Shown piece after piece: positions 1 through 48,459 of a stretch of 64,000 nucleotides of DNA (the stretch's first letter is position 1; every line of letters starts with the position of its first letter). Position numbers and translations under genes: made by a program. Source of the DNA: a virus; IMG/VR virus record IMGVR_UViG_3300044617_002200, positions 1-64,000 of that record. One strand, written 5' to 3'. The notes beneath the pieces are model-generated. The model saw only the letters and a program-made list of their open reading frames with translations. It ran no database searches and was not told where the DNA came from.

Positions 1-126
1 CCGCTTGTCGAAGACGAACCGCTTGTCGAAGACGAACCGCTTGTCGAAGACGAACCGCTTGTCGAAGACGAACCGCTTGTCGAAGACGAACCGCTTGTCG
101 AAGACGAACCGCTTGTCGAAGACGAA
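1..126. repeat. 18-bp tandem repeat, seven perfect copies
   Basis: The 18-bp unit ccgcttgtcgaagacgaa is repeated seven times without a mismatch and may continue left of the window. In the protease frame on the minus strand it reads SSSTSG. An eighth copy sits at 211-228. The lack of any substitution indicates recent expansion. Confidence 0.97.
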
Positions 127-1970
127 CTACTAGAAGACGAAAATATGACATTTTCGAAACTTATAAAAACGTTACCGGCGCTAAATGAAGAGCCACCTGT
201 AGAAGACGAGCCGCTTGTCGAAGACGAACTACTAGAAGACGAAAATATGACATTTTCGAAACTTATAAAAAGATTACCGGCGCTAAATGAAGAGCTGGCA
301 AATGAAGAACTACTACTAGAAGAAATATAAGACGAACTACTAGAAGAAATATAAGACGAACTACTAGAAAAATTAACCCCTGTATTATTATCTGAATAAT
401 ATATAGAATTCTTATCAGAACCAATAAACATTCTGTTACCGCTCCAAGAAATATTTATAGATTTAGGATAAATAACTTTATTATTGTTTCTTATAGAGGA
501 AATATACCAATCTTCTCCATAATTATTGCTATAATAATAATTACCACTAATAATACCAGATTCTGCTAAGAAAATATTTTTACCGTCGTTAGATATAGAA
601 ACATCTACCCAATGCTTTGGTGAAAGTAAATTTTGATCTACATTTATATTTAAATAATTTAAATTCTTAAAAGAAGAAGAACTATTTGAAGTATACAAAA
701 GAGAATTTAAATTCGAATCTTCAAAAGTTAAACCCGCAAACCAATATTTTTTATCTTTTACGGTTTTAAATAAATCTCTGCTAGTACTGGTATTATTTAA
801 TATTAAAATATGTTTTTTTGTTTTATCTGTAAAATTAGTAACTCTTCCATCCCAGTATTCTATATTTAATAAAGTTGCTATTCTATCAATTCGGCATGCA
901 ATACCAGTAAATCTAGTGCCCGCAAAACACAACCCCACAATTTTATGAACACCATTAAAATTTGCTATTAAAACAGAGCCGCTATCTCCTCCAGAAATTG
1001 GATTTCTCGTTCCATCTCGATTTTTAAATTGAATACAATCGCCGAAATCTATTTTAAAAATCTGATCATTATAAAAATACGAAATAGTAAAAAATCCCGA
1101 AGTCCCCGTAATTTTCAAAGAACAATTTTTACCACCCTTGGCCCCAGTTGTTCGGCCAGAAGAATAAACCTCTCTGTCATAAAAAGATAAAGAATCTATT
1201 TCTTCAGAAGTAGCGAACGAGTAATAACGGCCTTCATAATTTAAGCCTAATTGTTGAAATGATTCATTTTTATCAACAATAATCTCTCCATTTTTATTTT
1301 TTTTATCTAGAGCAATAAGCCCACAGTCTACGTAATTTATTTTATCTAAACTATACGGAATAAATCTTTTAATAGTACCAATAGAATCATTCTCTAAATT
1401 TATAGGAGTACCTTCCGTCCATTGGATGATTTTTTTTTCTTTAGAATTATTCGGCAGATTATTTGTATCTGATGTATTTACAGAACAAAAAAAATCTTTC
1501 ATTAAAACATGATTATTTGTTAACCCTACCGCAGAGCCATCGTCTTTGTCCAAACAAACCATACCTAACGTACCTCTTGGTAGCATTCTAGATATTGGAT
1601 CATAATTATCTGTAAAATTAGCTACAACGATGCCTCCTTTAATAGGCCGGTGTCTCGATCTATGCTTTTTTATTTCTTGAGATATATTATATTCCCAATC
1701 ATAGCAAGCTAACGAAACAGGAGAATCTTCTTCTACTACGTCAGTTATATATCTAAGACCATCTATCCAGACTTCGGTTGGCAGTAATTCATCTTCTGGA
1801 ATATACTTTTTTATTTTTTTTACAGAAACCTTAAAGGTAATACATTCAACATTTGTAGAAATATTATTTTTTATTTTTTTGGAAAAAATTACCCCAGTAA
1901 CATAATCTGGAGTTTTTAAATACAAATCTTCTATTTTTCCTAAAAATAATTTTTTATCTCTTGATTGCAT
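1..1970 (-). CDS. Trypsin-like serine protease with serine-rich repeats (3' end outside window)
   Basis: The reading frame is open from ATG at 1970 down to the left edge, about 656 residues, with no stop seen. The N-terminal 370 residues form a chymotrypsin-fold protease. The His is in GLTNNHVL (H154), the likely Asp in VDCGLIAL (D215) and the nucleophile in GGDSGS (S330); GLCFAGT follows as the usual strand after the serine. The tail from about residue 525 is nearly all Ser with Thr and Gly (SSSTSG units) and two copies of a block holding FSAGN and FISFENVIF. It is a diverged relative of the protease at 2242-5355 and probably a virion tail or fibre protein. All three catalytic residues look intact. 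The start follows the 65-codon gene by 6 bases, suggesting translational coupling. Protease call confident; target unknown. Confidence 0.85.
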   Translation of the reverse strand, partial: MQSRDKKLFLGKIEDLYLKTPDYVTGVIFSKKIKNNISTNVECITFKVSVKKIKKYIPEDELLPTEVWIDGLRYITDVVEEDSPVSLACYDWEYNISQEIKKHRSRHRPIKGGIVVANFTDNYDPISRMLPRGTLGMVCLDKDDGSAVGLTNNHVLMKDFFCSVNTSDTNNLPNNSKEKKIIQWTEGTPINLENDSIGTIKRFIPYSLDKINYVDCGLIALDKKNKNGEIIVDKNESFQQLGLNYEGRYYSFATSEEIDSLSFYDREVYSSGRTTGAKGGKNCSLKITGTSGFFTISYFYNDQIFKIDFGDCIQFKNRDGTRNPISGGDSGSVLIANFNGVHKIVGLCFAGTRFTGIACRIDRIATLLNIEYWDGRVTNFTDKTKKHILILNNTSTSRDLFKTVKDKKYWFAGLTFEDSNLNSLLYTSNSSSSFKNLNYLNINVDQNLLSPKHWVDVSISNDGKNIFLAESGIISGNYYYSNNYGEDWYISSIRNNNKVIYPKSINISWSGNRMFIGSDKNSIYYSDNNTGVNFSSSSSYISSSSSSYISSSSSSSFASSSFSAGNLFISFENVIFSSSSSSSSTSGSSSTGGSSFSAGNVFISFENVIFSSSSSSSSTSGSSSTSGSSSTSGSSSTSGSSSTSGSSSTSGSSSTS
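109..312. repeat. 102-bp direct duplication in the protease tail
   Basis: Positions 109-210 and 211-312 are two copies of a 102-bp unit that begins with the 18-bp repeat. They share long exact stretches, including the part coding for FISFENVIF, and differ at a few bases and at the end of the second copy. The unit is 34 codons, so the frame is preserved. Confidence 0.85.
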
Positions 1971-1976
1971 TTTAAG

Positions 1977-2174
1977 TTAATGAGTCTCTTTTTGTATTTC
2001 AAAAAATATATAAAGATCTTTAATTGATTTTGTCTCAGATGAAAAAGAATTTGACCCATTAATAGCATCTGCACTCAGATTAAAATCTTCATCGGCATTG
2101 ATATTAGTTTCTAAAAAAACTGCATCAAAATTCAAATTTTTTCTTAAATTTTCGTCATAGATATAATTTTCCAT
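1977..2174 (-). CDS. Small hypothetical protein upstream of protease
   Basis: This 65-residue acidic protein has no recognised domain, signal peptide or membrane segment. The start is well supported: AGGAG lies 6 bases before the ATG, one of the better ribosome sites in the window, and a GTGTAAT box sits further upstream at 2197-2203. It ends 6 bases before the protease gene that runs off the left edge, so the two are probably co-transcribed. It could be a small virion or accessory protein for that protease, but only position suggests this. Confidence 0.7.
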   Translation of the reverse strand: MENYIYDENLRKNLNFDAVFLETNINADEDFNLSADAINGSNSFSSETKSIKDLYIFFEIQKETH

Positions 2175-2196
2175 AAAGCTCCTTATGCCTTATAAA

Positions 2197-2203
2197 ATTA
2201 CAC
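2197..2203 (-). promoter_or_regulatory. GTGTAAT box upstream of 1977-2174
   Basis: On the minus strand GTGTAATTTTATAAGG lies about 23 bases before the start codon. It matches the motif found before many genes here and is proposed as a late promoter core. Confidence 0.5.
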
Positions 2204-2241
2204 CAAAATCCAAAAAAAATCTTTAAAGCGAATATTATATA

Positions 2242-5200
2242 TTACAAATATATTGTATTAGAGTCTTGATTTAATTTTAATATATCAAAGTTATCTATTA
2301 ACTCCTTTAAATTAAAAGAATTTGGAGAATATGGCGGCGGTTGCCATCCTGGAGGAGCGGTAGTCCCACCACCCTCTCCTAAGCAGCAACTATAAACAAC
2401 TTCATTACATTCATTCAATATTCTTACCCAAGTAACGCCTAAATGCGGGTTCGTATTTCCAGGCGAAGGAACTATAGAAATTGAAAACGATAGAGGTATT
2501 CCTGTATTAGAACCAGTATTAACTCCAGAAAAACCAAATAGAATAAAATTATCATCACTAGTTATAATTCTAGAACTATATCTATCATATTGACCATTAT
2601 ACGGGAATGGTCCTGGTCCATTATCTCTTGTTCCGGCATTATTCAACATCCCACTTAACACAGTATATCCACTGGGAGATAACTCTGTTTTCATTTTAAT
2701 GTCAAAGTCAGCTCTATTGCAAACGTGACCACCACCACAAGGATTATCTACCCCAACATTATCTCCACCAGGACCTTGACCCGAACCACTTGTAAAGATT
2801 AAGAAAGATCCAGATGCGTCATACCAACCGCTAATTAAATCATTCGGACCGCAAGGAACTGTTGGACCACCACCGCCTCCACCTCCAAGAGATTGCACAA
2901 CAATAGTTAATGTCCAAACTTCTTGTATGCCACCTCCATTTCCAGGACCCCCTCCACCATAAGTACCAGTAAATACAATTTTTGTTGTATAAGTACCAGG
3001 TGTTGTTGGCGTTCCAACAACTCTAGCAATGACAGAGTTATTAAGTCCAGCCACTGCTTCGTTGTTTATTGTAACTCCCGGACATACGTTTGGATCTTCT
3101 ATACAAACTGGTCCACTTGGAGGACAAAGTCCGCATGTTTTCAAAATAGCTCCGTTCGATATCGCTAAATTTTCAATAGCATATATTTTTTTTGTATAAT
3201 AATTAATACCCATTCTTCCTGCGGAAGAGTCTCTCGGCTCACAGCATCCGCCAGGATTAATTGCACAACTAATAGCACTAGTTAATGATACTTCTTCATT
3301 TTTATTTTTTAATTCAAATTGAGAATTATCATTTATAAGTTCAGAGACAGCTTCTTTAGATAGAAAAAATTCATTTCCATTAATTGATAAAGGATAATTT
3401 TTGCCAGATTTTGATCTAGCATATATAAAACAACGTTCTCCATCGTCGATTTTTATTGATGAAGTAGGATCTGGCTGAGGCACGATATGAAAGAAAAACC
3501 CACTACCACCGCTACCTATTGATCCAGATAATCCACTTTTTAAAATTGCTGTAGAAGGATTATAGCCAGCTGGAAGTGGAGCTTCTTCAAAAAATAACCA
3601 TTGCTTATTTGGTGTATGTCCAGGACCAGACTCATAAGTTAATTTAAAATCTATCGAATCAGGGCCTGGATTTATAATTCCACTTTCTAAAGAAATTCTG
3701 CAAGGAAAAGGCGGTTCATTAATAAATACAGATTCCGCATGAAAGGTATTAAATTCTAAAAGACCGTCTCCTACAAAACATGGAGGAAGTATTCTTTCGG
3801 GCGGATAGCAAACTGCATCGCTAGGATCACCCTGGTTATGCACATAAATAGTCTCCACTTTATAACCCACCAATCCCTGACCAACGACAGGAGTACAAAA
3901 AGGGTTGTCTCCAGAACATGCTAATCTGTTATTTATATTATCCCAATATTCCTGAGAACCAGTTGGGTATATATTATTATTAGCAGACCCGATACCCGCT
4001 TGATAAAAAGTAACACCATTGAAATCAAAATAATCACCTTTAAAATCTTTTGGAGCCACAACAATAGTTCCTTTTTTCATTGTGTCTACACCTAAAGGTC
4101 TACCATCCCATTGGCTAATATTCAAAGCTTTTTGGACATTATCAATTCTACAGGCATACCCTATAGCACGAGTTGAACTAATCGTACCAGCAAAAATCAA
4201 CCCGACTACTTTAAAGACAGAACCAAATTTTGCTAATAGAAAAGAACCTGAATCTCCTCCAGCAACTGCCATTCCTTGGCCATCTGCATAGTCTACCTCT
4301 ATAAGATCAGAATAATAAAGATCTACTGTTGAACCTTGTGATTGAACTTTTAAAGGACCAATACTAACAGTAACTCCAACTCTAGTTATTTTTAAACCAC
4401 AAGACTCGTTTTTAGGACCTGTTCTTGCTCCAGCACTGATAGCCACTGCATTCAAACAACTATTAATTTCTTGAGTTGTTGCAAATGGCACATTAGTAAC
4501 ATTGGCTGGTAAAATACCGAGTTGAAGATTAGATACTCCGCTCGTTAATAAAGAACTACTACCTAAGGTACATATAGCGGCATCCACAGTATTCATCACA
4601 TAACAAGTTGGAGTACTGGCGGCTGAAGGAGTATATTTTTTGGGACGACCGATAACCGCTGTTCCAGTTGTAACGACACTATTAGTTGAATCTTGAAGAA
4701 CAACTTGATCATAACCGCTAATAAAAGTTCCATTACTTGCCCATACATTCCCCTGTATAGTCCATCTTTGAACAGCAACGTTATCGTATATATTGTATAT
4801 TTCTTTAGCGAGGCTTCTATTGTGAGCGTAAGTATAATCTTTCACTATTACGTGAGCATTTGTTAACCCAACAACAGTGTTTGTATCATTATCTACGACT
4901 AAACCTCCCAAAGTACCTCCAAACCTATTAAATATTTGGTTTTGATTCGTTCCTCCGTTGCCGTCCAAGAAAGCGTTAGTATACATGTTCAAGACATGAA
5001 TACCACCTATCAAAGGCCTATGTGCCCTTCTATGTTCTGCTACGTTAAAAGGAGTAGGAGTAGCATCAAAATTATTGCAAGTAACTAAAAATTCGGCAAA
5101 CCCTCTTTCTACCACATCAGTTTTAAGCTTTTGTCCTTGTAAATAAACATATTCTGGAATTAAATCTCTGTCATCTATAACACTTAAGGGTCTTTTTTTA

Positions 5201-5355
5201 TGAACAAAATAAGTTAAACTCAATTCGTTCGTTTCGACCCCACTAACAATTTTATTACCAATACCAAATCCGTGAATATTAGGAGATGTTTCACGCATCA
5301 ACCCTGCGAACTCTTCGGTTAAACTTTCTCTGTCGTTTAATAAACTTATCTCCAT
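2242..5355 (-). CDS. Large trypsin-like protease with Ig-like C-terminal region
   Basis: This 1037-residue protein starts with a region (about 25-90) resembling the lead-in of the plant NAL1/bacterial trypsin-like family: GFGIGNKIVSG, then TYFVHKKRP and LKTDVVERG. A chymotrypsin-fold domain follows with H168 in GLTNAHV, D258 in NTVDAAI and S369 in GGDSGS, so the triad looks complete. The middle part is rich in Gly, Pro and Cys. Around 790-860 there is an Ig-like stretch (GTPTTPGTYTTKIVFTGTYG, then a TLTIVVQ strand), with a Gly-rich linker and a final beta-rich region. It lies among tail genes and is a paralogue of the protease at 1-1970, so it is probably a virion tail or fibre component that cuts host surface protein or matures a virion protein. 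No signal peptide is seen. Confidence 0.85.
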   Translation of the reverse strand: MEISLLNDRESLTEEFAGLMRETSPNIHGFGIGNKIVSGVETNELSLTYFVHKKRPLSVIDDRDLIPEYVYLQGQKLKTDVVERGFAEFLVTCNNFDATPTPFNVAEHRRAHRPLIGGIHVLNMYTNAFLDGNGGTNQNQIFNRFGGTLGGLVVDNDTNTVVGLTNAHVIVKDYTYAHNRSLAKEIYNIYDNVAVQRWTIQGNVWASNGTFISGYDQVVLQDSTNSVVTTGTAVIGRPKKYTPSAASTPTCYVMNTVDAAICTLGSSSLLTSGVSNLQLGILPANVTNVPFATTQEINSCLNAVAISAGARTGPKNESCGLKITRVGVTVSIGPLKVQSQGSTVDLYYSDLIEVDYADGQGMAVAGGDSGSFLLAKFGSVFKVVGLIFAGTISSTRAIGYACRIDNVQKALNISQWDGRPLGVDTMKKGTIVVAPKDFKGDYFDFNGVTFYQAGIGSANNNIYPTGSQEYWDNINNRLACSGDNPFCTPVVGQGLVGYKVETIYVHNQGDPSDAVCYPPERILPPCFVGDGLLEFNTFHAESVFINEPPFPCRISLESGIINPGPDSIDFKLTYESGPGHTPNKQWLFFEEAPLPAGYNPSTAILKSGLSGSIGSGGSGFFFHIVPQPDPTSSIKIDDGERCFIYARSKSGKNYPLSINGNEFFLSKEAVSELINDNSQFELKNKNEEVSLTSAISCAINPGGCCEPRDSSAGRMGINYYTKKIYAIENLAISNGAILKTCGLCPPSGPVCIEDPNVCPGVTINNEAVAGLNNSVIARVVGTPTTPGTYTTKIVFTGTYGGGGPGNGGGIQEVWTLTIVVQSLGGGGGGGPTVPCGPNDLISGWYDASGSFLIFTSGSGQGPGGDNVGVDNPCGGGHVCNRADFDIKMKTELSPSGYTVLSGMLNNAGTRDNGPGPFPYNGQYDRYSSRIITSDDNFILFGFSGVNTGSNTGIPLSFSISIVPSPGNTNPHLGVTWVRILNECNEVVYSCCLGEGGGTTAPPGWQPPPYSPNSFNLKELIDNFDILKLNQDSNTIYL

Positions 5356-5365
5356 ATAATTAATA

Positions 5366-5372
5366 ATTACAC
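5366..5372 (-). promoter_or_regulatory. GTGTAAT box upstream of large protease
   Basis: Minus-strand GTGTAATTATTAATTAT immediately precedes the ATG at 5355, in a gap of only 24 bases. It matches the recurring box. Confidence 0.5.
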
Positions 5373-5379
5373 CTCTTGT

Positions 5380-8300
5380 CTAAAAAAAACCTTGGTTTCC
5401 AATTGAAAAAAAACAGGTGGGTCTAAAAAATTGTATAGAATCATAAGTTTTTCTTGTATAAAAATTGTTTGATAATGGATTGTCATAGTCTGGAGGACGA
5501 GAATCATTAGAATTTTTATTTAGATAATTAAAATTACCAACTAATGCGTATCTATATAAAAGATTGCCGTAAATATTTCCGATTGCTAAAGAATCTAATT
5601 CGGAATTATTTTCTGAATCTATAAAACCTACAGTTACACCTTCTGCATAAATATCTAATTTTGTCCAACCATATCTTTTAATTCTTTTTACAGAACCATC
5701 TAAAGGAGTAGAGAAATTACGCAAGCCGTTGCCTCCTGCCCCATTGACTATATAATATATATTTTTTTTCTTTTCTAATAGTCGTTTTTCAAATCTCTCA
5801 TAATTTTTTGAAAAACCGTTAAAAATAATATCTGCAGAATTTAAATTCCATCCGTTTTCAGAATTTAAATCATAATATCCATAATTATACGATTCAGATG
5901 TAAATGGCGGATGATTAAATAACACAAATTTAAATGGATATTCTGAATTAGAAATTGCGTTATTAAACCACGTTTTTTGTATAGATCGATATGTTTCGTT
6001 ATGTTTACTAGACACTGATTCTCCTTTTCCAGCGCCTTCAGAAATAAGTCCACAACGAGAATTACCTCCTGTTATAGGATCGCTATCAAGTACAAAAAAA
6101 TGACAAGGCCCAATTTTAAGCTCGTAATACTTTCTACTATTAGAAGTATTTTTTATTAAATTATTTAATATTAAATTAAAATAACTTAAATATATATCTC
6201 CGAAACCATCTACTCCATCATAATCTTTTTCACCCAAAACAGGATAAAAATTTGAAACAGAAGTTGGAGAGACATCTTTAAACACAAACCTACAAGAATT
6301 AATACCCGTGGGTAAATAAATTTTTCCCTTTTCAATTATATCTATATCAGAAGATTTACGGTAATATTCTATAAATTCTCTATTTGGCTTTTTAACTTCT
6401 ATGGATAAAAAAGAAGGTTTATAATTTTCTAAAAATTCAATATAATAACCTGTCAAATAATTATTAAAAATATTATTTTTTTCATAACCTAAAAATATAT
6501 CTTCCTCTGCTCCATCTTTAGATAAAACGGCCATGTCGGTTAATTCATTTTTTGTAAAAGCTCTCCAAGCTAAAAAAGGGTTGTAATCTTTACTAAAAAT
6601 TACTTCTCCGTCGTTATTAGAGTAAGAATTTAAATTTGGAATAAAATCATTTACATTAGCAGGTAAGCTTATATCAATACTATCATATAAGTAAAAAGAA
6701 TCTATGTTCAATAAAGGAGCTGATCCAGAAACATAATTCTTATGAGGCCATTTTTTAGATTCATTAATTTCATACTGCAAATATTTAAATGGTTTGGGGT
6801 CATTAATTCTAAAATACTTCTTCGAAGAAGAATACCAATTATTATTCAATTCAGAATCTGAGTAAATCCTACTATCTAAAGTAACCCAGGTAGTTAAATT
6901 TTGAGAACCTTTTAAAGAAGTTGATAAAGGATAAAAAGAAGAATTATAATCAAGTCCTATTTCGTAATATTTCGCAACAGGAGAAACATTTAATTCATCT
7001 TTAAATTCAATTCTGATATATCCTGTCTGATTTTCAGAAGTCGTCCATGATTGAGAATCAGATATGTTTCTTAAATCTTTTTCTATAAATAAATTCTGAA
7101 CTAAATTAGTGTTTTCAGACGCAGTAATAGTTATATTAGAACCAGTTAAAGATTGCGGTATTACATGCCTTAGAAGCGTTCCTGTTGAACTTTCAGAAAA
7201 TATTAATTTATTTTTTAGATCTGCAACTCCAGATTCTCCAGAGTAAATAAAACCGCTTATATATTTATTTTCTACCAACACATATTTATCATATTCCTGA
7301 ATATTAGGAATATTAGGCACTCCCGAGGAAGGCGGACTCCAAAATCTTTCATCAAGATTAAAGCAATAAAAACCAGTATAAAAAATATTTTTATTAAAAA
7401 AACCGGTACCAATTCCGGTATTTACGACATCATTGTAAATACCACTCAAAGCAGTTACAGAAGAAAAATCAATGTTTCTACTTTTGAATATAAATTCTGA
7501 AGAACTAACTTCTTCTTCTTCTAAAGAAACTGCATTTATTTTTGTTCCGCTAGAAGGGAATCCCACTGCAAATCCCCCATAAAACGGCAAATCATATTCG
7601 TAATTTATATTACCGGTAGCATAAAAAAGTCTATTTTGAATTATATTATCAAAACTTCCTGTAGCAGGAACGCCATAGAAGTTTGAATTAGAACTTTTAC
7701 CATCGCCCTTTAAATTACCTGATAAATAATCAAAACCATAAACAAAACCACTAAAAGAACCGCTAGCGAAGCCGGTCGCTTCATAATAATCTAAAATTAC
7801 TTCTCCAGTATTACCATAAATAGGATAGACAGAAAAACTAACTGTCTCAGGTTTAGGTATTATAGATCTTAATTCGTAATTATAAAAGTAACCAGAAGTA
7901 TTATTATTATCTATAAAAGTTAATCCAGTGAAACCAGCTAAAAATTCCAAATAATAAATTGGATCTTTAGTAAATTGCATCTCAAAATCTTGAGAAATAT
8001 TGCCGAAATTAGTTCTTAAAAATAATCTTGGTCTAACAACTGTTCCAGCCAAGCCAGCCAATCTCCCTGTTCCAAAAATAAAATCTAAAATTATATTACC
8101 GCTAGATAAACCATTCACTAATTCTGGATATATTTCATTTTTAATTCCAAAAATACCACCAGCATTGAATAAATCTCCGGAAAAAATCTTAAAAGTTTTA
8201 TTTGATTCCTCTGATAGGTTTGAGATATAACCGGTAACATCTTGCCCTACAGGAATTTTATACGGAAAATTTATAGAATAAGAAGGTTTCAATCCTTGAA

Positions 8301-8661
8301 TAGTTAAATCGAAGTCAATTGGAGTTCTATCTGTTTCAATTAAAAAATTATTGTAATAATCACCTCGGAAAGGCGTATATAAACAAACTGGAGTACCCTG
8401 AATAAAATAATTTAAGAAATCATTTCCTAAATTTCCTGAAATAGAAATAATTTCATTAGGATTATAAGACCAAACATGGTTCTGGTCATAATCAAAAATT
8501 TTTCCACTCTCGAATTTAAATATAATAGTTTCTAATTCCGAATTTTTAGAAAAACCAATATTACTAATCCCGGTGACATTGCCAAATGAAGCTTCAAAAA
8601 GAAAAGTAAGCTCGTTACTTCCCGGTATGCTTCTATATAATACACCAGAATCTATTTGCAT
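5380..8661 (-). CDS. Giant tail protein with discoidin-like and degenerate phosphoesterase domains
   Basis: This is a 1093-residue protein. Residues about 550-640 resemble an F5/8 type C (discoidin) carbohydrate-binding module: LSTSLKGSQNLTTWVTLDSR, then KYFRIND and LQYEINE. Residues about 790-1000 follow the purple acid phosphatase/calcineurin order, with PVLGEKDYDG in place of PVLGNHDY, then FFVLDSD, FNHPPF in place of HRPPY, NGFSKNYER in place of SGHDHNYER, and YIVNGAGGNG. Several metal-binding Asn and His positions are therefore replaced and the domain is probably inactive. The first 500 residues are beta-rich, Gly/Tyr/Phe-rich tail-like sequence. It begins 2 bases after the hub candidate ends and belongs to the post-tape-measure tail set. 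A role in glycan binding at the tail tip is inference. Confidence 0.75.
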   Translation of the reverse strand: MQIDSGVLYRSIPGSNELTFLFEASFGNVTGISNIGFSKNSELETIIFKFESGKIFDYDQNHVWSYNPNEIISISGNLGNDFLNYFIQGTPVCLYTPFRGDYYNNFLIETDRTPIDFDLTIQGLKPSYSINFPYKIPVGQDVTGYISNLSEESNKTFKIFSGDLFNAGGIFGIKNEIYPELVNGLSSGNIILDFIFGTGRLAGLAGTVVRPRLFLRTNFGNISQDFEMQFTKDPIYYLEFLAGFTGLTFIDNNNTSGYFYNYELRSIIPKPETVSFSVYPIYGNTGEVILDYYEATGFASGSFSGFVYGFDYLSGNLKGDGKSSNSNFYGVPATGSFDNIIQNRLFYATGNINYEYDLPFYGGFAVGFPSSGTKINAVSLEEEEVSSSEFIFKSRNIDFSSVTALSGIYNDVVNTGIGTGFFNKNIFYTGFYCFNLDERFWSPPSSGVPNIPNIQEYDKYVLVENKYISGFIYSGESGVADLKNKLIFSESSTGTLLRHVIPQSLTGSNITITASENTNLVQNLFIEKDLRNISDSQSWTTSENQTGYIRIEFKDELNVSPVAKYYEIGLDYNSSFYPLSTSLKGSQNLTTWVTLDSRIYSDSELNNNWYSSSKKYFRINDPKPFKYLQYEINESKKWPHKNYVSGSAPLLNIDSFYLYDSIDISLPANVNDFIPNLNSYSNNDGEVIFSKDYNPFLAWRAFTKNELTDMAVLSKDGAEEDIFLGYEKNNIFNNYLTGYYIEFLENYKPSFLSIEVKKPNREFIEYYRKSSDIDIIEKGKIYLPTGINSCRFVFKDVSPTSVSNFYPVLGEKDYDGVDGFGDIYLSYFNLILNNLIKNTSNSRKYYELKIGPCHFFVLDSDPITGGNSRCGLISEGAGKGESVSSKHNETYRSIQKTWFNNAISNSEYPFKFVLFNHPPFTSESYNYGYYDLNSENGWNLNSADIIFNGFSKNYERFEKRLLEKKKNIYYIVNGAGGNGLRNFSTPLDGSVKRIKRYGWTKLDIYAEGVTVGFIDSENNSELDSLAIGNIYGNLLYRYALVGNFNYLNKNSNDSRPPDYDNPLSNNFYTRKTYDSIQFFRPTCFFSIGNQGFF

Positions 8662-8663
8662 TT

Positions 8664-11072
8664 TTAATAACCCACTCTTTTTATATCAGAAGAAACTTTC
8701 CTCAAAATGACTTCTGGGTTTGGCGGCTTTGGAGGCTTAGAGGCGAATTCGACACTAGTTTTAAAACCATCTTCTCCTAAAGAAATTTCCATTGAAGAAA
8801 GACCGCTAGAGGGAGATAAATCTAATCCATCTGGTTCTCCAGCAAAAATAAAAGAAGACCTCTCCATCGGAGAGGTAACAGAAGAAGCAACTGCAGTGGG
8901 TAAATCAGAGCGTTTCGCCCCCCAAGAATCAAATTCCGCATCAGTCATATTATCTATAGAAACATTTATTCTAGCAACGTCTTTTGCATTACCAACTGAT
9001 CCTGTAGAGTTAAGTATTTCTTTATTACTATCATCATTCAATAATTTTTGTATAGAACTAGTGAATCTTGTCACAAATTGATACTGACTTTTACTAGGGG
9101 CTAAAAATCTTATATTTGATTTCGCATCTTTTAAAGATATACTGATACCTTCTGCCATTTTTTGAACAAGCCCAGAAATAGGTTCTTTTGGGTCTTCGTT
9201 CTTTTCCGGTTGAAGCTTATCCATCAAATATTTTCTAGCCTCGTCTTCCGCAGATAAGCATGGTTTATTTTTAGAGTCTTCTATTGCGTCGCATTGTTTA
9301 GGGGCGTTTTGATTATATTCAGAAACATCGTCGATAGTGGATTCTAAATCATTTTGACCGCTAATGTATGTTACTTTTAAACCAAGATTTTTTTTGACAA
9401 AATCAGAATTCGGGTAAATAACTAAAGTGTTTACTTTTTTAGAAAGTTCTTTTGTTAAAAGCTCTGCTTCAATTAAATACCCTATTAAACCAGACTCGAC
9501 TAACTCAATGTGAATAGGACTACAAGCTCTTAACTCTCGAGTTAATTCAGATAAACCCAATTCTTCTAAAATAGAACTTGGATCATGAGAGAAAGTTCCA
9601 TTTCTTTCCAACAAATTGGATGCTGAAAATTCATCAGTTTGATCTTCTAAATAAGAGCCTTGAGGTTCTACGCTAACTTCAGATTGTACTAAAACATCGC
9701 TGTTACAAAAATAATAAGATCTATTCGTACCTGGGACTTTATAATGGCGACCGAAATTCGACATATTAGTTTTTTCAAGATCTCTCCATGTAGCTAAAAT
9801 TCCTTCGTCATGACTTACATATGCAGCAGTAAAACTAGGCAAACCCTCTTCATCTAGATCTTGCAAGGCTTGAATAGCTTCTTCATAACCGCCAGTTTTT
9901 ATTAAAAAATTTATAATTTTTTTAATATCTACGGTTTCGCCTTTATCAGTTATTTTGTAACCCATAATTCTCCACCATTTCTTTTCAAAAGCATAAATAT
10001 CTCTTAAAGAATCACTAATCAAACCTAACATCCCGCAAATTACAAACTCGCTTCGACTTCTTCCGTCTCCAAAAGTACCGCCCTCCGCGTCTAGTGATTT
10101 TCTTGTACCATTCTTATTTAAATAATAATTTAATGGATATGGATTAACAGAAGAAGTTACTATTTCTGAATACTCTCCATCTACAGCAGTAGGAGCTTCT
10201 TTTGGTTTTGCGCTATAAGAAATAGCAAATTGTCTATAAGTACCTTCCATAGAAGCACCTTCCGAAACAGAAATTAAATTAGAAGCATTAGACGATGGAA
10301 CGCTTGATATACCGGCAGAAGCTTCAAAAAATTTTAGACCGTTATTCCCTCCCGACGAATAATCCCAATAAAAATCATAACCAAAATCTGCGCACCAATT
10401 TTGTAAAACTTCTCTCAGCGTACCGGAATGAGTGGTTCTATATTTAGAATTTTTATCCGGCATATTTAAACTTATAGGACAAGCTTGTTTTAATTCTGAA
10501 AAATTATAATCAGTGGTCGGGATTTCACATTCTGAGTCTCTAAATTGTTCTGTACCTACCAATATAGCGCCTCCTTTAACGGCAGAGCCTTTTTTACATT
10601 TTCTTGTTATAGAGTGAGATCCTAAAGATCGCTCCATCCAATCTAAATAATACCCCCAAGAACCATTACTCTTCAAAATAGGAAGAATAGTTTTTTCTTT
10701 AGAAAAATCGAATTTTTTTGTTTTAGATATTTCAGATCCATTTACGCCCAATAAACCTCTTTTCCATAAAACAACATAATGTCTATCAAGTATAATACTA
10801 TTATCTATTATTTCAACTTCTAACAAAGATTGTTCTGCTGTTTTTGTAATATTATAAGACCAGACAATTCCATTAAAAGTAAAAGAACCCATTCTAACTG
10901 ATACGGCCTTATTTAGAGAACCAGAGCTTATATTATATGATCCAGAAGAACTAACTATGTTTAATGTTAAAACGCTAGGCTCAGCGGAATAGTTTGTTTT
11001 TAATGATAATCCATAAATCACTCCACCATAAGATGGACCACTAATATTTGGAATTTTTTGAAATGAAGACAT
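8664..11072 (-). CDS. Putative tail hub / tail-tip protein
   Basis: This 802-residue protein is read from an ATG preceded by AAAAGG and a GTGTAAA box. Its first 300 residues are beta-rich and contain TLREVLQNWCADFGYDFYWD, which resembles hub proteins of the gp27/Tal type, where a helix with a conserved aromatic packs in the second domain. The remainder holds alternating helices and an unusual number of Ser/Glu segments. It lies third after the tape measure, where siphoviruses encode distal tail and tail-associated proteins. No peptidase or lysozyme motif was found. Family membership rests on position and general pattern only. Confidence 0.5.
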   Translation of the reverse strand: MSSFQKIPNISGPSYGGVIYGLSLKTNYSAEPSVLTLNIVSSSGSYNISSGSLNKAVSVRMGSFTFNGIVWSYNITKTAEQSLLEVEIIDNSIILDRHYVVLWKRGLLGVNGSEISKTKKFDFSKEKTILPILKSNGSWGYYLDWMERSLGSHSITRKCKKGSAVKGGAILVGTEQFRDSECEIPTTDYNFSELKQACPISLNMPDKNSKYRTTHSGTLREVLQNWCADFGYDFYWDYSSGGNNGLKFFEASAGISSVPSSNASNLISVSEGASMEGTYRQFAISYSAKPKEAPTAVDGEYSEIVTSSVNPYPLNYYLNKNGTRKSLDAEGGTFGDGRSRSEFVICGMLGLISDSLRDIYAFEKKWWRIMGYKITDKGETVDIKKIINFLIKTGGYEEAIQALQDLDEEGLPSFTAAYVSHDEGILATWRDLEKTNMSNFGRHYKVPGTNRSYYFCNSDVLVQSEVSVEPQGSYLEDQTDEFSASNLLERNGTFSHDPSSILEELGLSELTRELRACSPIHIELVESGLIGYLIEAELLTKELSKKVNTLVIYPNSDFVKKNLGLKVTYISGQNDLESTIDDVSEYNQNAPKQCDAIEDSKNKPCLSAEDEARKYLMDKLQPEKNEDPKEPISGLVQKMAEGISISLKDAKSNIRFLAPSKSQYQFVTRFTSSIQKLLNDDSNKEILNSTGSVGNAKDVARINVSIDNMTDAEFDSWGAKRSDLPTAVASSVTSPMERSSFIFAGEPDGLDLSPSSGLSSMEISLGEDGFKTSVEFASKPPKPPNPEVILRKVSSDIKRVGY

Positions 11073-11089
11073 ACCTTTTACCGAATTAT

Positions 11090-11096
11090 TTTACAC
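11090..11096 (-). promoter_or_regulatory. GTGTAAA box upstream of tail hub candidate
   Basis: Minus-strand GTGTAAAATAATTCGG lies about 18 bases before the ATG at 11072, in a 47-base gap between genes. Confidence 0.5.
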
Positions 11097-11119
11097 TAAA
11101 CTAGTATATAAAAAACAAT

Positions 11120-13033
11120 TTATCTATATACAAAGAAAAAATCGTCCGTATTGTCATAGATCAAATCTAAATTTTTACCGAAGCTGAACGATCCTGAAAT
11201 TCTATCAAATTTAGAATTTTCTATATAATCTTTATCGATAGTTTGTTTGATACCATTTAAATAAACATGGGTACAATAGTTGTTAAAATTAGAATCTAAT
11301 TCTACTGTAGAACGAGAATCAAAGGTATAAGAAAAGTCTGAATTTAAATTTTTTACATAAAGTAAATTTAGTCTAGAAGAAATTAAGTCAAAATTTAAAA
11401 AATTAGGCAATTCATAATCTTTTCCACTAATTAATTTTTGTCCGTTTAAAAAAACAAAGCTATTGTCAAAACTCGCATCTGAAATAGACATACCGCTGAA
11501 AATACTACCAATTAAATATATACTGTAATTCCCAGTTATATTATCTACTGTCAAAACATCATTCTCTGTAAAAAATTTTTCCGTCTCTATATTCCGCCCA
11601 GTTAAATAATAATCAAAAAGAGGGCCTATTAATTCTTCATAGCCAATTTTTTTTCCAGAATAACCCCCATCAATTAGCAATTGACCATTTGCAAACAGTA
11701 AAATATCGCTATTTTTATAATTCCTATTTAAAAAATGTTTTCCTCGAACAGAATCATACAAAGCAGGAATGTTAAAATATTTACGATTAGCCTTGTAATT
11801 TTCTTTATAGATTTCTATTAAATTCTCGCTTGTTTCTTCTGTATTAAAATATAAAGACACCTCAGAAAATGAAAGAGACTTTAAATAATCTGTGTCAATT
11901 GAATAATTTAAATCACCAGTAACGACAGTAAATGAATCGCAAACGTCTTCAGTTATAAAAATTTTTTCGGAACCCGTTATTGTGCCCGTAATTTCTATAT
12001 TCTCATATTCAAATCTTGGCACAAGCCCAGTTAAAGCGATCTCAGTAGTAAATCTAACCTCTCTAAAACCAGATAAATAAACTGTTTCATAAATGGGTCT
12101 TTCGATATTGCAACTATCTAAAAAATAACCTACTAAATCTTCTCTTTTACCTGTTCTTGTGTAATATAAAATTCCTGTTTCTATCGAGGTAACCCCAGTA
12201 ATTTGATTTTCATATATAACATTTTCAATTAGCTGGTAACCCGTAATTCCCGTATAAGAAAAGCCTGAATCTATAAAATACCCAGTAGTATAACAAATTT
12301 CTCTAGAAAAACCTTGAACTTCTCTTGGAGAAGAATATAATCCTAAGGCAAGATCATTTGCATAAATTGACGGTATATCTTCAAAATAATAAAAACGATC
12401 AATCAAACCATATAAATTATCCACATCATTTTGAATAAAATTCCTAACAGGAGATCCGCCTATAAATAATTTGTTAGCATTAATTATTGAATTATTGAAT
12501 ATTTCAAAATCCCTCGTTTCAAAATTAAAAGTATTATTATCAAACCTCCCAATAGAAATATTGGACCCATCCTTACCAACCATGATTAAATTTTTATCAG
12601 ACAAAATTTCATCAAAAGTAAAAGTGAAAACCCCTTCAACTCCATTATTATATTTATAATAAAGCTTATTAGCAGAATTAACACCAACAAAAAAACCTCT
12701 AGCTTCATCGTTAACTTCATCCACGCTTGAAAATAAGATACTATCTTTTGAATCAAATTTTTCATAAGATATTAAAAATAGATAATTATCTTTTTGATAA
12801 TCAATATTAGAATTAAAATAAATATAATTATTTTTATCAAAAAAACCAGGCTTGTTATTAACAAAAACTGATTCATTAAAAACCAATCCCGTTAATGCGA
12901 AATTCGACGAAAAGTCGGGGTAAAGCAAACCCCCGTTAAAGCTGCCGCTCGAAAAATCAAAACCAACAATATTTTTCTGGATAGGTTCTCCTAGAAGATT
13001 TAAATAAAATTTAATACCAGTATAATTAATCAT
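11120..13033 (-). CDS. Tail protein with concanavalin-like N-terminal region and repeated beta hairpins
   Basis: This 637-residue protein has an N-terminal 230 residues resembling a LamG/concanavalin-type jelly roll (NNYIYFNSN, LFLISYEKF, a closing YGLIDRFYYFED strand). The C-terminal half repeats a hairpin of the form NGQ-x-L-x-G-x-DY: LFANGQLLIDGG, VFLNGQKLISGKDYE and VYLNGIKQTIDKDYIE. Such hairpins are common in phage tail and baseplate proteins. The gene overlaps the upstream tail gene by 4 bases (ATGA), so it is translationally coupled. The likely role is a peripheral tail-tip protein that contacts surface glycans; this is inferred from fold and position. Confidence 0.55.
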   Translation of the reverse strand: MINYTGIKFYLNLLGEPIQKNIVGFDFSSGSFNGGLLYPDFSSNFALTGLVFNESVFVNNKPGFFDKNNYIYFNSNIDYQKDNYLFLISYEKFDSKDSILFSSVDEVNDEARGFFVGVNSANKLYYKYNNGVEGVFTFTFDEILSDKNLIMVGKDGSNISIGRFDNNTFNFETRDFEIFNNSIINANKLFIGGSPVRNFIQNDVDNLYGLIDRFYYFEDIPSIYANDLALGLYSSPREVQGFSREICYTTGYFIDSGFSYTGITGYQLIENVIYENQITGVTSIETGILYYTRTGKREDLVGYFLDSCNIERPIYETVYLSGFREVRFTTEIALTGLVPRFEYENIEITGTITGSEKIFITEDVCDSFTVVTGDLNYSIDTDYLKSLSFSEVSLYFNTEETSENLIEIYKENYKANRKYFNIPALYDSVRGKHFLNRNYKNSDILLFANGQLLIDGGYSGKKIGYEELIGPLFDYYLTGRNIETEKFFTENDVLTVDNITGNYSIYLIGSIFSGMSISDASFDNSFVFLNGQKLISGKDYELPNFLNFDLISSRLNLLYVKNLNSDFSYTFDSRSTVELDSNFNNYCTHVYLNGIKQTIDKDYIENSKFDRISGSFSFGKNLDLIYDNTDDFFFVYR

Positions 13034-14622
13034 GATGATATAGGACCTTCAAATAACCAGCTTTCTTTTAAATTTACACTTTTTAAATCAGGATTAATTG
13101 TTTCGTTATTATTTTCAAGAACGCCTCTACCTACTCCATAATTACTTTTTATACGTCCTAATTCACTTTGAGCCGCCGATAAAGCTTCTTGCATACTAGA
13201 ATTTGGTTTAGCTATTGCAGTAACATCAAAATCAGCTCTAGCTCTTCTCGCAGTGCCAAGATCTTGAACATTATGATCTCCAGGTGTAACCGCCGAAGCA
13301 TTAGGTACATATATTTTAACTGATGGTTTTAAATTAACAGTAGACTGCAAGCTCAAGATTTTATCCGAAAAATGCTGATATTTGTCATCCCAAGTTGCAC
13401 TAAAATTAATTCTAGCATTAAATTCATCAAAAGTCGCAGATTCGTTTAATTTTTTATTATATAAAACTCTATTAGAAATTTCTTTTCTATATTCTGCATT
13501 AGCTAAAGAAAAAGGATCAAAAGAATTTTTGTAAAAATTTTTTACTTTTTCCCATTTAGTTTTTGTGTCGCCATATTTTGCAAATATTTCAGTATTTAAT
13601 GTTACTGTGGTAATATTTTTAATATTATCACTAGAAATATCTACCGAATAGTTGTTAACTACATCCGAAGAATAATCATTATTAAAAGTATAGTTAAATG
13701 AAATTTTATTTTCATACTCGAATTCTGTAACCGAATTCTCTATTGGTTTTGAATTTAAAATTACTCCTACCGAAGAAACAGTATTAGAATTAGCAATATT
13801 ATAAAAATTTATCTTATCTAATTCCTCTCTTAAGACAGGAAGAGTATTCTTTGTTAGAGAACCTTCTATATTAGTGACTACGTAACCATCATTAACTCCA
13901 GAGGAAATATCTATAGAATAATTTAAAAAACAATTTTTAGGGCTTTCAATTGATCTCGTTTTTTGATAAACGCCCTCCCAAGAATAAAATCCCTCTATCC
14001 GATTGATTTCTTCTTTAACAGAATCAAGTAAATAATCAGAACCGTTCGGGTCAATTAAAATCGGATTAATTTTATTAAAATTGTCTTTTCGAGAAACAAC
14101 CCACTCTTTCGCATTTTCTAATGGAGACTTATTATTTATTTTTAAGCCTTTTGCTGATAAAGAATGGGTTACAGAAGCTATTCCAAAGTCTTCTTCTTTA
14201 AATTCTAAATTTTCTTGTGGTTCTATTATTCCATAATAATTATTAAATAAACTTGGCTCATATACTGTAAAATTTATCTCGAATGGTATTACTCCGTACC
14301 ATTTATCCTCCGGAATACTTAACGAATCAAATATAGCTCTTTCAGCTTTAAATAAAATATCATTATCTTGTTTTATCTCTAATTCTTTAAAATTAGAAGA
14401 AAGCCTTTCTTTTAATATATTGAGAGATCTATTTAATTCAAAAAAAGAAGTTTCTCCCAAATATCTTCCAGTTATCTGTCCTTGCATTTTTAGATTAGTA
14501 ACTTGGTTCCAAGTATTTTTATAATCGATAAAATTTTGTTCTGAAGAAATAAATGGGATTGGTGCAATATCTTTAAACAAATCTTGATTATTATATAATA
14601 TTTTAATATTAGACTCGCTCAT
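13030..14622 (-). CDS. Tail protein, paralogue of the adjacent 14625-16292 product
   Basis: This 530-residue protein has no named domain. It is beta-rich with Asn/Ser-rich strands, and it contains a PGDHNVQDLG segment and a C-terminal helix (SSMQEALSAAQSELGRI). Layout and spacing of segments match the upstream neighbour: an early MQGQITGRYLG-type segment, a SYSVDISS-type strand, a TKWEKVKNFYKNS-type linker helix and a final A/S-rich helix. I therefore regard the two as an old tandem duplication. It lies second after the tape measure, so a distal-tail or tail-tip ring protein is plausible. It starts 2 bases after the upstream gene ends and overlaps the downstream one by 4. Confidence 0.55.
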   Translation of the reverse strand: MSESNIKILYNNQDLFKDIAPIPFISSEQNFIDYKNTWNQVTNLKMQGQITGRYLGETSFFELNRSLNILKERLSSNFKELEIKQDNDILFKAERAIFDSLSIPEDKWYGVIPFEINFTVYEPSLFNNYYGIIEPQENLEFKEEDFGIASVTHSLSAKGLKINNKSPLENAKEWVVSRKDNFNKINPILIDPNGSDYLLDSVKEEINRIEGFYSWEGVYQKTRSIESPKNCFLNYSIDISSGVNDGYVVTNIEGSLTKNTLPVLREELDKINFYNIANSNTVSSVGVILNSKPIENSVTEFEYENKISFNYTFNNDYSSDVVNNYSVDISSDNIKNITTVTLNTEIFAKYGDTKTKWEKVKNFYKNSFDPFSLANAEYRKEISNRVLYNKKLNESATFDEFNARINFSATWDDKYQHFSDKILSLQSTVNLKPSVKIYVPNASAVTPGDHNVQDLGTARRARADFDVTAIAKPNSSMQEALSAAQSELGRIKSNYGVGRGVLENNNETINPDLKSVNLKESWLFEGPISS

Positions 14623-14624
14623 AA

Positions 14625-16292
14625 CTAAGAATGTTTGTAAGTTATACTGTACGAAGCAGTTTGCTCTATTTCATTAGAGTTAAAAGAAACTTCTTCTATA
14701 TATTTTTGGCTTGAGGGAATTTGAGATACAAAAGAAGACAATCTTTGTTTCAAAGCATTTATATACTGAAATCCATTAAATATTTGGTTTTGACTTAATA
14801 AAGCTATTTCCGCAGAAGCACTCAAAGTAGCCGAACCTTGTTTTGTGAAACCTTGGTTTTGTATAAATGTATAAGATCTATTCGGAATAATAAATTCTTT
14901 AGTAAAAGATAAAGCGTCTGTTTTCGAATATTCTATATTAATTCTTCGTATATCGCTATTTAAGTTTATTCTCGGGTCATCTGAATATTCATAACTATAT
15001 GTAATTTGCCCTTCAGCAGGTTTTTTTACTACATTTTTATTAACTAATTTTAAAGACGAAGAAGCTTTGTCGGCAGAAGAAACGTATGTATTCCAAATAG
15101 AAAGAGTATTATTAGTTATTTCATTTTTTTTCGTATTCCAGGCGTTTTCGGCTTTTTTGTACTTATCGTTTTGAACTAAATTATATTTTACTCCTACCCC
15201 CTCTATAGTTCCATTTTCTATTACTTTCCAAATCCAATCTGCGTCTCTTTGTATTATTAAAGTATTTTCAAAAATAAAATTAGCATTTTTTCTTTTTTCA
15301 TCGTTATCGTACTCTACACTATAATTTATAGTTCCATCAAATTTGTTTATAACAATGCTTTTTTGAGAAGGTCCAGAGCTAATCAATTCGGAGTTTTCTA
15401 TATTAAATCTATTTGATGTTTTATATCTATTAAAAACAAGATTGCATCTATTAAAAGAATTATTTATACCTTCTACTGGATCATTCAAACCCAAAAGAGC
15501 GCACTCATATAAAGACGGGGAATTAGATTCGGCTTTTATCGAAGCATCCTCTTTAACAGCAACTCTGCCCTCTGAGTCTAAACGGATGCTTATATTTCTA
15601 TTTATTGAGAAAGGTTTATCTAAATTATTGTTATTCTGGTAAGAAAATTTCTTAGAAAATCCGCACGAACTATTTATTAAATCATAAGATTCACTTTTTA
15701 ATACAGAATAAGAATTTTCTGGTCTTGTATTATAATTACCCTCTTTTAAATTAGAAGGTAAAGTCTTTAATAATTCTAAAGCTAGCTGTTGAGCAAAAGA
15801 AATTAAATTCAAATTAACGTCGTTAGACTCAAATTCAATTTGTATATTATGATCTCCCCCTAAAATAGAACTATCTGCATCAAAATCAAGAGTAAATGTT
15901 TCATTAAAATTTTTTATTAAATGTAAATTTTTATTGTTTAAATTAACACCATTAAATTCCGGACCAAGATCAGTGATCGATACTTCATCTAAAATTTCTA
16001 TTTCTGCTTGAAATTCTGTATTTTTTACCCAGTTACCTTCGTCGAAAGATAAAGATTTAATTTTACCTTTCCCAAAACTGACGCCATTTATAGTAACTTC
16101 CTGAAAATTCCTCGCTAAAGATTTAATTTCTTGAACTCCCTCAAAAACGTTTTTAACGCCATTATCGTTCAACAGATCTAAAATATAGCCACGAATAGAA
16201 ATTTGTTTTACTATAGAGTAGTAAAAAGACTTTTCTCCCAAAAAAGAATTTTGATGGTTATAACCAAGAAGCTGTATATTATTAAATATCAT
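14625..16292 (-). CDS. Putative distal tail protein, first gene after the tape measure
   Basis: This 555-residue beta-rich protein starts 1 base after the tape measure stop. Its N-terminus (LLGYNHQNSFLGEKSFYYS, then VTINGVSFGKGKIKSLSFDE) looks like a tail-ring protein with an insertion site definition strand of the Dit type. The middle holds alternating Asn-rich strands and a linker helix (YKKAENAWNTKKNEI). In siphoviruses the gene next to the tape measure encodes Dit, the ring at the tail end, so this is the best candidate for that role, with its downstream paralogue as a second ring. No catalytic motif is present. Confidence 0.5.
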   Translation of the reverse strand: MIFNNIQLLGYNHQNSFLGEKSFYYSIVKQISIRGYILDLLNDNGVKNVFEGVQEIKSLARNFQEVTINGVSFGKGKIKSLSFDEGNWVKNTEFQAEIEILDEVSITDLGPEFNGVNLNNKNLHLIKNFNETFTLDFDADSSILGGDHNIQIEFESNDVNLNLISFAQQLALELLKTLPSNLKEGNYNTRPENSYSVLKSESYDLINSSCGFSKKFSYQNNNNLDKPFSINRNISIRLDSEGRVAVKEDASIKAESNSPSLYECALLGLNDPVEGINNSFNRCNLVFNRYKTSNRFNIENSELISSGPSQKSIVINKFDGTINYSVEYDNDEKRKNANFIFENTLIIQRDADWIWKVIENGTIEGVGVKYNLVQNDKYKKAENAWNTKKNEITNNTLSIWNTYVSSADKASSSLKLVNKNVVKKPAEGQITYSYEYSDDPRINLNSDIRRINIEYSKTDALSFTKEFIIPNRSYTFIQNQGFTKQGSATLSASAEIALLSQNQIFNGFQYINALKQRLSSFVSQIPSSQKYIEEVSFNSNEIEQTASYSITYKHS

Positions 16293-16293
16293 C

Positions 16294-19200
16294 TTAAATT
16301 CTAGCTAAAGATGGAGGTACTTTTTTTCCTAAAGCTCTTTTTACATTATTTCCTATTTGATCATTTATCTCTGGAAGCATAGATAAAATAACCTCTCTTG
16401 GGTCTTGTTGAGCCGAAGTTATATTTAAATTTACAGGAGCATTTATATCCGCTTTTACATTAGAAGTCATGCCAGCAGCAAAATTAGGAACAAAATTACT
16501 CGCAGCACCAGTAAGCTTTTCTATAGCCGAATTTAAACTTTCTAACATAATTGAAATATTATTATTAGGAATATTATTTTCGGATAGACTATCAAAAGCG
16601 CTTACAATATTATTTAATCCAGAATCTAAATTAGAAAAATTCGGGACTCTTTTTTCAAAATTCATACCTGACATTTTTAAATTTTCTCCAGCATGGTCTC
16701 TAAAAGCTTGGGATAAAGAATTTTGCCCTTGTAATTTATTAAAGACTCCTAATCCAAGTGGATTTGTCGCACTTTTTAATAAACCAGAACTCCCTACTCT
16801 AACAGAATTCAATGCTTCACTGGGAGAAGCACCCATAGAAACCAAGCTAGCAACTTCTCTTTGAATTGAATCATTAAGAGGATTTTTTTCAAAAAAGTTA
16901 GGAATAAAACCTTTTGAGTAAGAATCAGTTTTTTTATGCGAGTTGTATACAGTTCTTAATTTCGAATACTGCTGTCTAGAATACATTGTTTTGTATTCCA
17001 TTAATTTTTTAGCAAGAGCCATTTTTTCTTCAGATGTTTTTGCGTTTTTTATAGCATCTTCATAAGCAGTATTTAATTCTAAAACTTCTGCTTTCGCCGT
17101 TTCATCAGAATAAGCGTTTTCTTTTTGAGTAGATTCTATTACCGATCTAACAGGGTCAGCATTTGAAGAAGTATCGCTTTTAGTATTTAATAAAGACGCA
17201 ACCTTTTCAGAAGGCTTTCTTTCCAAAACTGGCGCTTTTGACTCCTCTTCTTTTGGTAAAGGATTCGTTGCGTCTGGATCTAAAATCCCTGTAGATTTTT
17301 GACGAACCCTATCAGAAATTACCTGTGTAGCATACAAACCTTCTGTTAACCAACGCTTACCAGCAGGAGTTAATTTATACGAACTATCTTCCGAACCATA
17401 CTTTTCTAAAGTTTGTTTTAATGATTTAATTTTATTTCTAGCTTCGCTATAGCTTTTGTCCTGAAATTCACTTTTTTTAATTTCAGTTAAAGAATCTTGT
17501 ATATTTCTAATAAAAGAGGCCATTTCATCTTCAGAGAATTGTTCTGATGGGTAAAGTCCCTCTACAACAGATTTTGGTCTAGAAGTTTTTGTATCTATTT
17601 CTCCAACAGCTTTTTGCTTCATTCTCGATTGAGACTCTTTTATTTCGTTTAAAACCGTAGAAGAAAAATCGGCTATTTCTTTTGGTATTTGAGTACCACT
17701 ATACTCCTCAAGTTGTTTTTTAGCTAATTCATACTGTTTTCTTGCTTCCCCAACTTTTCCAGCATCTTCCGATCTGTTTGCATTTTCTATTATACGATAA
17801 ATATTTTCTGGTATTGTTGGTTTAGTTTTTTTAGTATCACTGCTAGAGCTAGGTTGAGAAACCGTATTTTTAGCAGAGGATACCGGTTTAGAAGCAGGAG
17901 TGGGAATAACAGAAGCAGGAGCGGGTTGGTTTTGATTTGCTGTAATTATCGCAGGCATTGCTGCATTATTATTGACAACTGACTCAGGATTTTCAGTAGT
18001 AGAAGAAGCAATATCTCTAACCGTTAAACCAGTATCTATAGCTGCAGAAATACCAGTTCCAATGCCAGGAAAACTTCCTGCTACTCCAGAAACAACTTCT
18101 AAACCTGCGCCTGCGAAATCACCCTCCATAGCACGCGAAATACCGAAACCAATACCAGCACCAATACCAATTATAGGTATCTTTTTTAATATGGCTTTTC
18201 CCAATCCTTTGCCCCCAGCTTTTCCAGCTGTTTTTGCTGCAGATTTTGTAGTAGCTTCAGCTGCTTCTTCTACAACTTTGCTAGTAGCTTTCGACGCCGC
18301 TTTATTTTGGAAAGCTTGCTCTACAGTTTTTTTTGCTAAATCATCTGAGTAACCTTTTGATTTCAACCAGTTATATAATTGGCTTTTTTGAGAAATACCT
18401 CCCGTTCTTCCTCTAGAACCTACTTTTCCAGGAGTGGTTGTATTTTTTTTATTTCTATCTAAAAACTCCAAAGCTTCTCTTTCTGCTTTTTTTATAGGGT
18501 CTTCTGGTTTAGGGGTCGGTACTTTTTTAGTCTCAGGTTTGGGTTTTTCCGCATCTGCGATACCCTTTTTAACGCTATCTGATTCAAGTTGTGATATTGG
18601 TTTATCAATAGGGGCAATTTTTTCTGGATTTATTTTTGCTAATTTTTTTCTAGCGACTGCCTGCTCTTCCGGAGTACCAAAATCAACCATTCTTTTTAAT
18701 TTATCTGCCTTAGTGTCCATTGACTGCTCTAAAGCAAGATTCTTATTTACTTTAGATACACCCTCTGCTTCTTGTATAGCTTTTTTGTATATTTCAGCTG
18801 GAGTGCTATTTGTTCCAGCCTGTTTATCCATCTCAAAAATCCCTTCTAAAAATGCGGCGGAGTCTTCTAATGTATTAAAAGTTCCTGACTCAACTAATTG
18901 ACGAATTGTTTTTTCAAATCCAGGATCTTTAGGAATCCTAGCAAAATTAGGTATAAGCCCTTTCGCAAAATTAAACGCTTTTTGCATATCCCTTGTAAGG
19001 ACTGCTGTTTTTCTCGTTCCTCCAAAATTTTTAATTAATTTCTCACCACTATTAATCATGGCGGGTTTTCCGTTAAGGTCATTTAAAAAAACAGGATAAT
19101 CTGAAGGCAATGCCCCACCAATGCCTTTATTAATAGCAGAAGTTTCATTTTTAAATGCAGGTATATACCCTGACGCTTTGTTTTTAACTGGGCCTTTAGG

Positions 19201-48417: not shown

Positions 48418-48459
48418 AAAAAAACGCGCTTATCCTTAATAGAGGTAAGCGCGTTTTTA
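48418..48459. terminator. Bidirectional intrinsic terminator
   Basis: A GC-rich stem ACGCGCTTA with TAAGCGCGT (48424-48454) has a run of A on its left and a run of T on its right, so it can end the plus-strand heat-shock transcript and the minus-strand PhoD transcript. It overlaps the PhoD stop codon. Confidence 0.88.

Follow-up and report, generated by a model that had tools for sequence, protein, structure and literature searches.

Results

Organization of the protease locus

The window analyzed here comprises bases 1–64,000 of an 83,405-base IMG/VR virus record, and at its beginning lie two genes for NAL1-like serine proteases, both on the minus strand, as are all the window features described below. 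The first (PA, positions 3–1970; 656 residues) is truncated by the end of the record and carries a C-terminal extension with Asp-box motifs and Ser-rich sequence; the second (PB, 2242–5355) is complete at 1037 residues, its protease being fused to an adhesin-like C-terminal half. The protease region of PA (residues 1–420, positions 711–1970) contains a NAL1-type N-domain, the triad H154/D215/S330 (positions 1509–1511, 1326–1328 and 981–983) and a C-terminal YWxxG tag, and that of PB (residues 1–460, positions 3976–5355) contains the triad H168/D258/S369 (positions 4852–4854, 4582–4584 and 4249–4251) and the C-terminal tag FYQAG. Extensions at the C-termini had been predicted, and they are real: in PA an Asp-box-like region (positions 366–653; SNNYGEDWY, SDNNTG), beta-propeller-like by sequence and poorly modelled with low pLDDT, is followed by a Ser-rich linker (SSSTSG etc.) at DNA tandem repeats of 18-, 24- and 102-bp units (positions 1–373), and in PB a conserved domain with the signature 'PCGGGH...VYSCCL' (residues 850–1033, positions 2257–2808) forms the C-terminus. 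Because the assembly stops inside the tandem repeats, the true C-terminus of PA lies beyond the record. The two genes are separated by an ORF of 65 residues (1977–2174) that matches no family in Pfam or PHROG, and a profile search of the 83-kb record finds PA and PB as its only family members.

Next to PB lies a tail-end protein of 1093 residues (5380–8661) with a purple-acid-phosphatase-like C-terminal domain (PF14008, E = 4e-4, under the curated cut-off), followed by an 802-residue protein (8664–11072) that is probably tail hub-like, a 2795-residue probable tape measure protein (16294–24681; assigned by length, position and a match over 1031 columns to a 2020-residue protein of a cousin phage), a probable major capsid protein (31277–32377; weak Phage_capsid_4 match, E = 0.025) about 26 kb from the proteases, and the terminase large subunit (41468–43369; phrog_2, E = 1.5e-24). 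Most of these genes taken singly have no direct family match, and the placement of the pair at the end of a tail gene run, as originally proposed, is instead supported by synteny with the cousin phage L016 (record G005; 60,654 bases), in which homologues occur in the same order, with identities of 54% for the terminase, 49% for a 637-residue portal-like protein, 54% for the capsid protein, 36% for the tape-measure-like protein and 25% for the hub-like protein. No sheath gene was detected in the window's record, which, as a weak test, would fit a non-contractile tail.

Several other genes of the window may be recorded here. A PhoD-like protein (48457–49887; E = 3.8e-18) is the second metallophosphatase-type protein in the window, the purple-acid-phosphatase-like protein being the first. 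Short BppL_N motifs occur in the proteins at 36652–39504 (1e-8) and 55405–58206 (2e-11), the latter of which also has a stretch matching the PHROG 'peptidase' family phrog_15439 (2e-11), and a glycosyltransferase-like gene is found at 61393–63381.

Sequence relationship and catalytic residues of PA and PB

PA and PB align with 29% identity over 486 columns (E = 6e-38) and are paralogues. A recent duplication was rejected as the source of the pair, as the two have long branches and are not resolved as sisters in a quick tree. The claim that both keep the His, Asp and Ser of a chymotrypsin-fold protease together with the motifs GLTNxHV and GGDSGS is confirmed, with GLTNAHV/GLTNNHV and GGDSGS present in the pair and all three residues located in each protein. 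Both also match phrog_20754 'protease' (9e-21 and 1e-18) over most of its 324-position profile; in Pfam neither has a match above threshold, and NAL1_N itself matches neither. By inspection, neither sequence begins with an obvious signal peptide.

The term 'trypsin-like' can be retained in part. The residue six before the catalytic Ser, which corresponds to trypsin Asp189 if the S1-pocket position is taken as a simple offset from Ser (loop lengths may differ), is Ala in PB and Pro in PA, and by the same offset it is Asp in none of 54 aligned members and Pro, Val or Ala in all of them. Judged from the alignment, the Asp of the canonical trypsin pocket is missing, and 'trypsin-like' holds for the fold only. 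Elsewhere in the alignment, a Cys of the N-terminal domain (PB C93 and PA C89; positions 5077–5079 and 1704–1706) is invariant in all 54 members, and a second Cys, kept in 44 of the 54, could form a disulphide with it.

Predicted structures

Structure prediction, proposed earlier as a check on both proteins, was carried out on monomers with AlphaFold2 using 53–54 sequences. The model of PB residues 1–485 has a mean pLDDT of 80.5 and a pTM of 0.86, and the protease part of PA has pLDDT mostly above 90. In Foldseek searches of the PDB the first 34 matches of each model are to rice NARROW LEAF 1 (NAL1; E = 2.5e-15 for PB and 1e-16 for PA), followed in each case by Streptomyces griseus protease B (SGPB). 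Both models align with NAL1 over about 400–490 columns, that is, over the whole protease region, with TM by target of 0.77 for PB and 0.73 for PA, and the predicted double beta-barrel is matched to both NAL1 and SGPB. At the sequence level, the family profile finds rice NAL1 among PDB sequences at E = 1e-8, profile positions 24–148 matching NAL1. The NAL1-like lead-in that had been suspected in one protein is thus upheld, and by the predicted structures both PA and PB are chymotrypsin-fold (S1-like) proteases with a genuine NAL1-type N-terminal domain.

Distribution of the family

The family is common in uncultured phages, relatives having been confirmed in at least 145 IMG/VR contigs by pattern scans that were not exhaustive. 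The first four finds, all on T4-like contigs, came from a hand-made pattern (HRxxHRP..GG), which also gave one false match (L005), and the scan that reached 145 contigs used a five-sequence alignment; IMG/VR scans with single back-translated proteins or with a two-sequence alignment found nothing. From the confirmed contigs 80 were kept, giving 73 distinct proteins when the first four are counted. Structural proteins with such domains had been called unusual; the domain is not peculiar to one phage, and in these contigs it often has fibre- or adhesin-like genes as neighbours.

Of 75 aligned proteins, about 71 keep the complete triad, and the search peptides themselves excluded the triad residues; in the 54-member alignment, His, Asp and Ser belong to a set of 24 invariant positions. 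Two tandem relatives (L060, 4042–6096; L041, 16659–17864) have lost the triad. The typical member is 400–440 residues long and ends in a short YWQxG tag, and about 20 members exceed 550 residues, the longest reaching 2766. A role for YWQxG as a docking tag common to neighbouring fibres was ruled out, since the tag was not found outside the protease family. Several records carry tandem copies, and one has up to seven matches; in L041 an array at 4705–17864 comprises six protease ORFs (seven profile matches), one of them lacking the triad. In two T4-like carriers (L002, 6911–9403; L003, 1330–3816) an insert of ~200–300 residues, binding-domain-like, lies between Asp and Ser.

Isolate phage records are almost devoid of the family: tblastn searches of them yielded no match for PA, PB or the relatives L006 and L017, and the single match of L013 was to one huge metagenomic phage. 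Searching predicted viral structures brought in one more relative, from Virus NIOZ-UU157 (E = 2e-35). Among bacteria, a scan of a species-level genome set with an eight-row alignment gave one weak relative, and 398 Pseudomonadota genomes gave five, the best at E = 3e-13. In a quick tree 56 phage members stand apart from bacterial NAL1-like proteins (SH-aLRT 99), and a huge-phage copy (L089) groups with the bacteria. To judge from the models and the conserved residues, both window proteins are most probably catalytically competent serine endoproteases, belonging to a virus-specific branch within the NAL1-like group of chymotrypsin-fold proteins.

Genomic surroundings and mobility of the protease

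A sheath gene is detectable in 18 carrier records, and in 17 of them, G006 being the exception, the protease is on the same strand as the sheath gene and 3–40 kb before it, mostly 12–20 kb. The scanned neighbours include sheath, tail fibre, baseplate wedge, Peptidase_S74, Mtd_N and lectin-like domains, and also non-structural genes such as DNA polymerase and glycosyltransferases. In T4-like carriers the protease lies between a gp15-type sheath stabiliser and the portal, and one such carrier has a separate gp21-type prohead protease, its identity being read from the ORF. In another group (L008, L012, L013) the protease has Cys-rich repeats carried on Thr/Pro linkers as neighbours, and in L041 a protease is fused to a related domain; the low-complexity linkers may inflate the scores of both relationships. 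Separately, 4 of the 85 scanned neighbours are GlcNAc transferases (PF11397), and genes of glycosyltransferase type are found close to Ser- or Thr/Pro-rich adhesins; they are candidates for phage-coded glycosylation of mucin-like linkers.

Comparison with two other phages shows the same adhesin domain with and without a protease. At the place syntenic to PB, after the hub-like protein and a 710-residue protein, G005 encodes a 400-residue protein made of a Ser-rich linker and the PB C-terminal domain (40% identity over 199 columns, E = 3e-37), in which no protease domain is found. The sole protease of G005 is a separate gene of 441 residues, located not at the tail end but between phoH and the packaging genes; downstream of it come a Ser-rich protein and then an RCC1 propeller (L016, 9713–10993; RCC1-repeat phage protein, PF13540, 1e-33). 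Similarly, L099 encodes a 1246-residue adhesin that combines Asp-box motifs, the PB C-terminal domain and poly-Ser; its record, which may be a fragment, yielded no protease. This adhesin adjoins a PhoD-like gene whose product is 65% identical to the window's PhoD-like protein. A tail- or adhesin-block location is thus seen both in the synteny with G005 and in the sheath-gene positions, with G005's own protease gene as the exception. Because the PB C-terminal domain occurs without the protease in G005 and L099, the protease is, on these comparisons, a movable module, gained, lost or shifted relative to conserved tail-end adhesin domains.

Discussion

Relation to known proteases

The fold and the family name (NAL1, PHROG 20754) are already known; a virus-specific clade carried on tail adhesins, in pairs or arrays, is not described in the open-access literature searched. 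No paper on the phage protease family was found in that literature, where papers on NAL1 structures are sparse. Rice NAL1 (PDB 8pmm, 8hau, 7y77) has in common with the phage proteins the N-terminal domain and the chymotrypsin-fold domain with LTNxHV and GDSGS, but identity is 13–19%, NAL1 is an intracellular plant regulator, and the YWQxG tag and adhesin extensions are features of the phage members. PHROG 20754, whose function is undescribed beyond the name 'protease', is matched by both window proteins, which differ from it in being longer and in having C-terminal modules. Bacterial NAL1-like trypsin-fold peptidases (e.g. Halomonas litopenaei L088) share GTLGF, NNHV, GRTTG and GDSGS; however, they are weak matches, and the phage members separate from them in the tree. 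Phage prohead proteases (S14/S49/U9/U35) have a ClpP-like or herpes-protease-like fold and a gene beside the capsid gene, neither of which applies to the window pair. The T4-like rhizobiophages phiM9 and P10VF are annotated with a 'trypsin-like serine protease' (PMC10783043), but these were rejected as relatives, as neither genome matches the family profile or PHROG 20754; P10VF_080 is about 229 residues long and lies outside the tail cluster.

Proposed function and alternatives

PA and PB are most likely, at somewhat better than an even chance, tail-borne endoproteases that cut host surface proteins; we infer activity, substrate and virion incorporation from gene content and predicted structure. 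The protease region, composed of the NAL1-type N-domain, the predicted two-barrel catalytic domain and the short YWQxG tag, is either fused to adhesin modules or has them encoded next to it; these modules are Asp-box or RCC1 propellers, Ser- or Thr/Pro-rich linkers and the PB-type C-terminal domain. Once the phage has adsorbed, its adhesin would keep the protease against the cell, where it could cut a proteinaceous surface layer, a pilus or a protein covering the receptor, and cleavage would open a path for the tail, much as polysaccharide depolymerases open one through capsules. The presence of two paralogues with different extensions suggests two substrates or two binding sites.

Both roles offered in the original prediction, digestion at the entry site and maturation of the virion, were weighed, and the first fits better. 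A morphogenesis protease, which would trim tail or fibre proteins, or the protein that carries it, while the virion is built, would suit a gene among structural genes, and phage heads are well known to mature by proteolysis, as with the phiKZ serine protease (PMC13282480). Entry-site digestion is nevertheless preferred because the number of copies ranges from one to about seven, because homologous adhesins occur both with and without the protease domain, and because a T4-like carrier has, by ORF reading, its own gp21-type protease; the long extensions fused to the protease likewise speak against a role in assembly, which is unlikely. Slightly less probable again is a receptor-destroying or release enzyme, which would detach the phage from decoys such as vesicles, debris and shed surface protein or remove the receptors of the infected cell: its anatomy would be the same and adhesin fusion would serve release equally well, but nothing in the sequence gives it preference over entry.

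A third alternative is an intracellular effector, ejected along with the DNA or produced late, which would break down host regulators or defence proteins. In plants NAL1 works inside the cell as a protease, maize ZmNAL1a degrading REL2 (PMC12915138), so that an injected or intracellular role is conceivable, and the apparent lack of a signal peptide in PA and PB agrees with it; the maize example is also a caution against inferring function from fold. The large adhesin-like domains fused to the protease and its location in a late tail block nonetheless make this reading rather improbable. A non-catalytic scaffold, in which the fold serves structure or binding only, is very improbable for the family, given that the triad persists in nearly all members at around 30% identity to PB, but the two tandem relatives that have lost it imply that binding may suffice in some copies.

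Implications

Sugar- and peptidoglycan-cleaving enzymes of phage tails are well known, and tail-spike depolymerases and other virion-borne enzymes provide the precedent of an enzyme domain exchanged between tail-end adhesins; to our knowledge, tail-borne serine proteases are not well known. Unlike tail-spike depolymerases, the present proteins, known here from their genes, would act on protein and not on polysaccharide. It is possible, though short of probable, that the virus-specific NAL1-like clade represents a general class of protein 'depolymerases', in which adhesin-borne movable modules, in pairs or arrays, would clear protein surface layers before DNA entry. Since homologous adhesins occur with and without the module, the entry idea can be tested directly. 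If it is true, cleavage of host surface proteins would be the way in for many uncultured phages, and the family would constitute a set of proteases pre-selected for bacterial surface targets.
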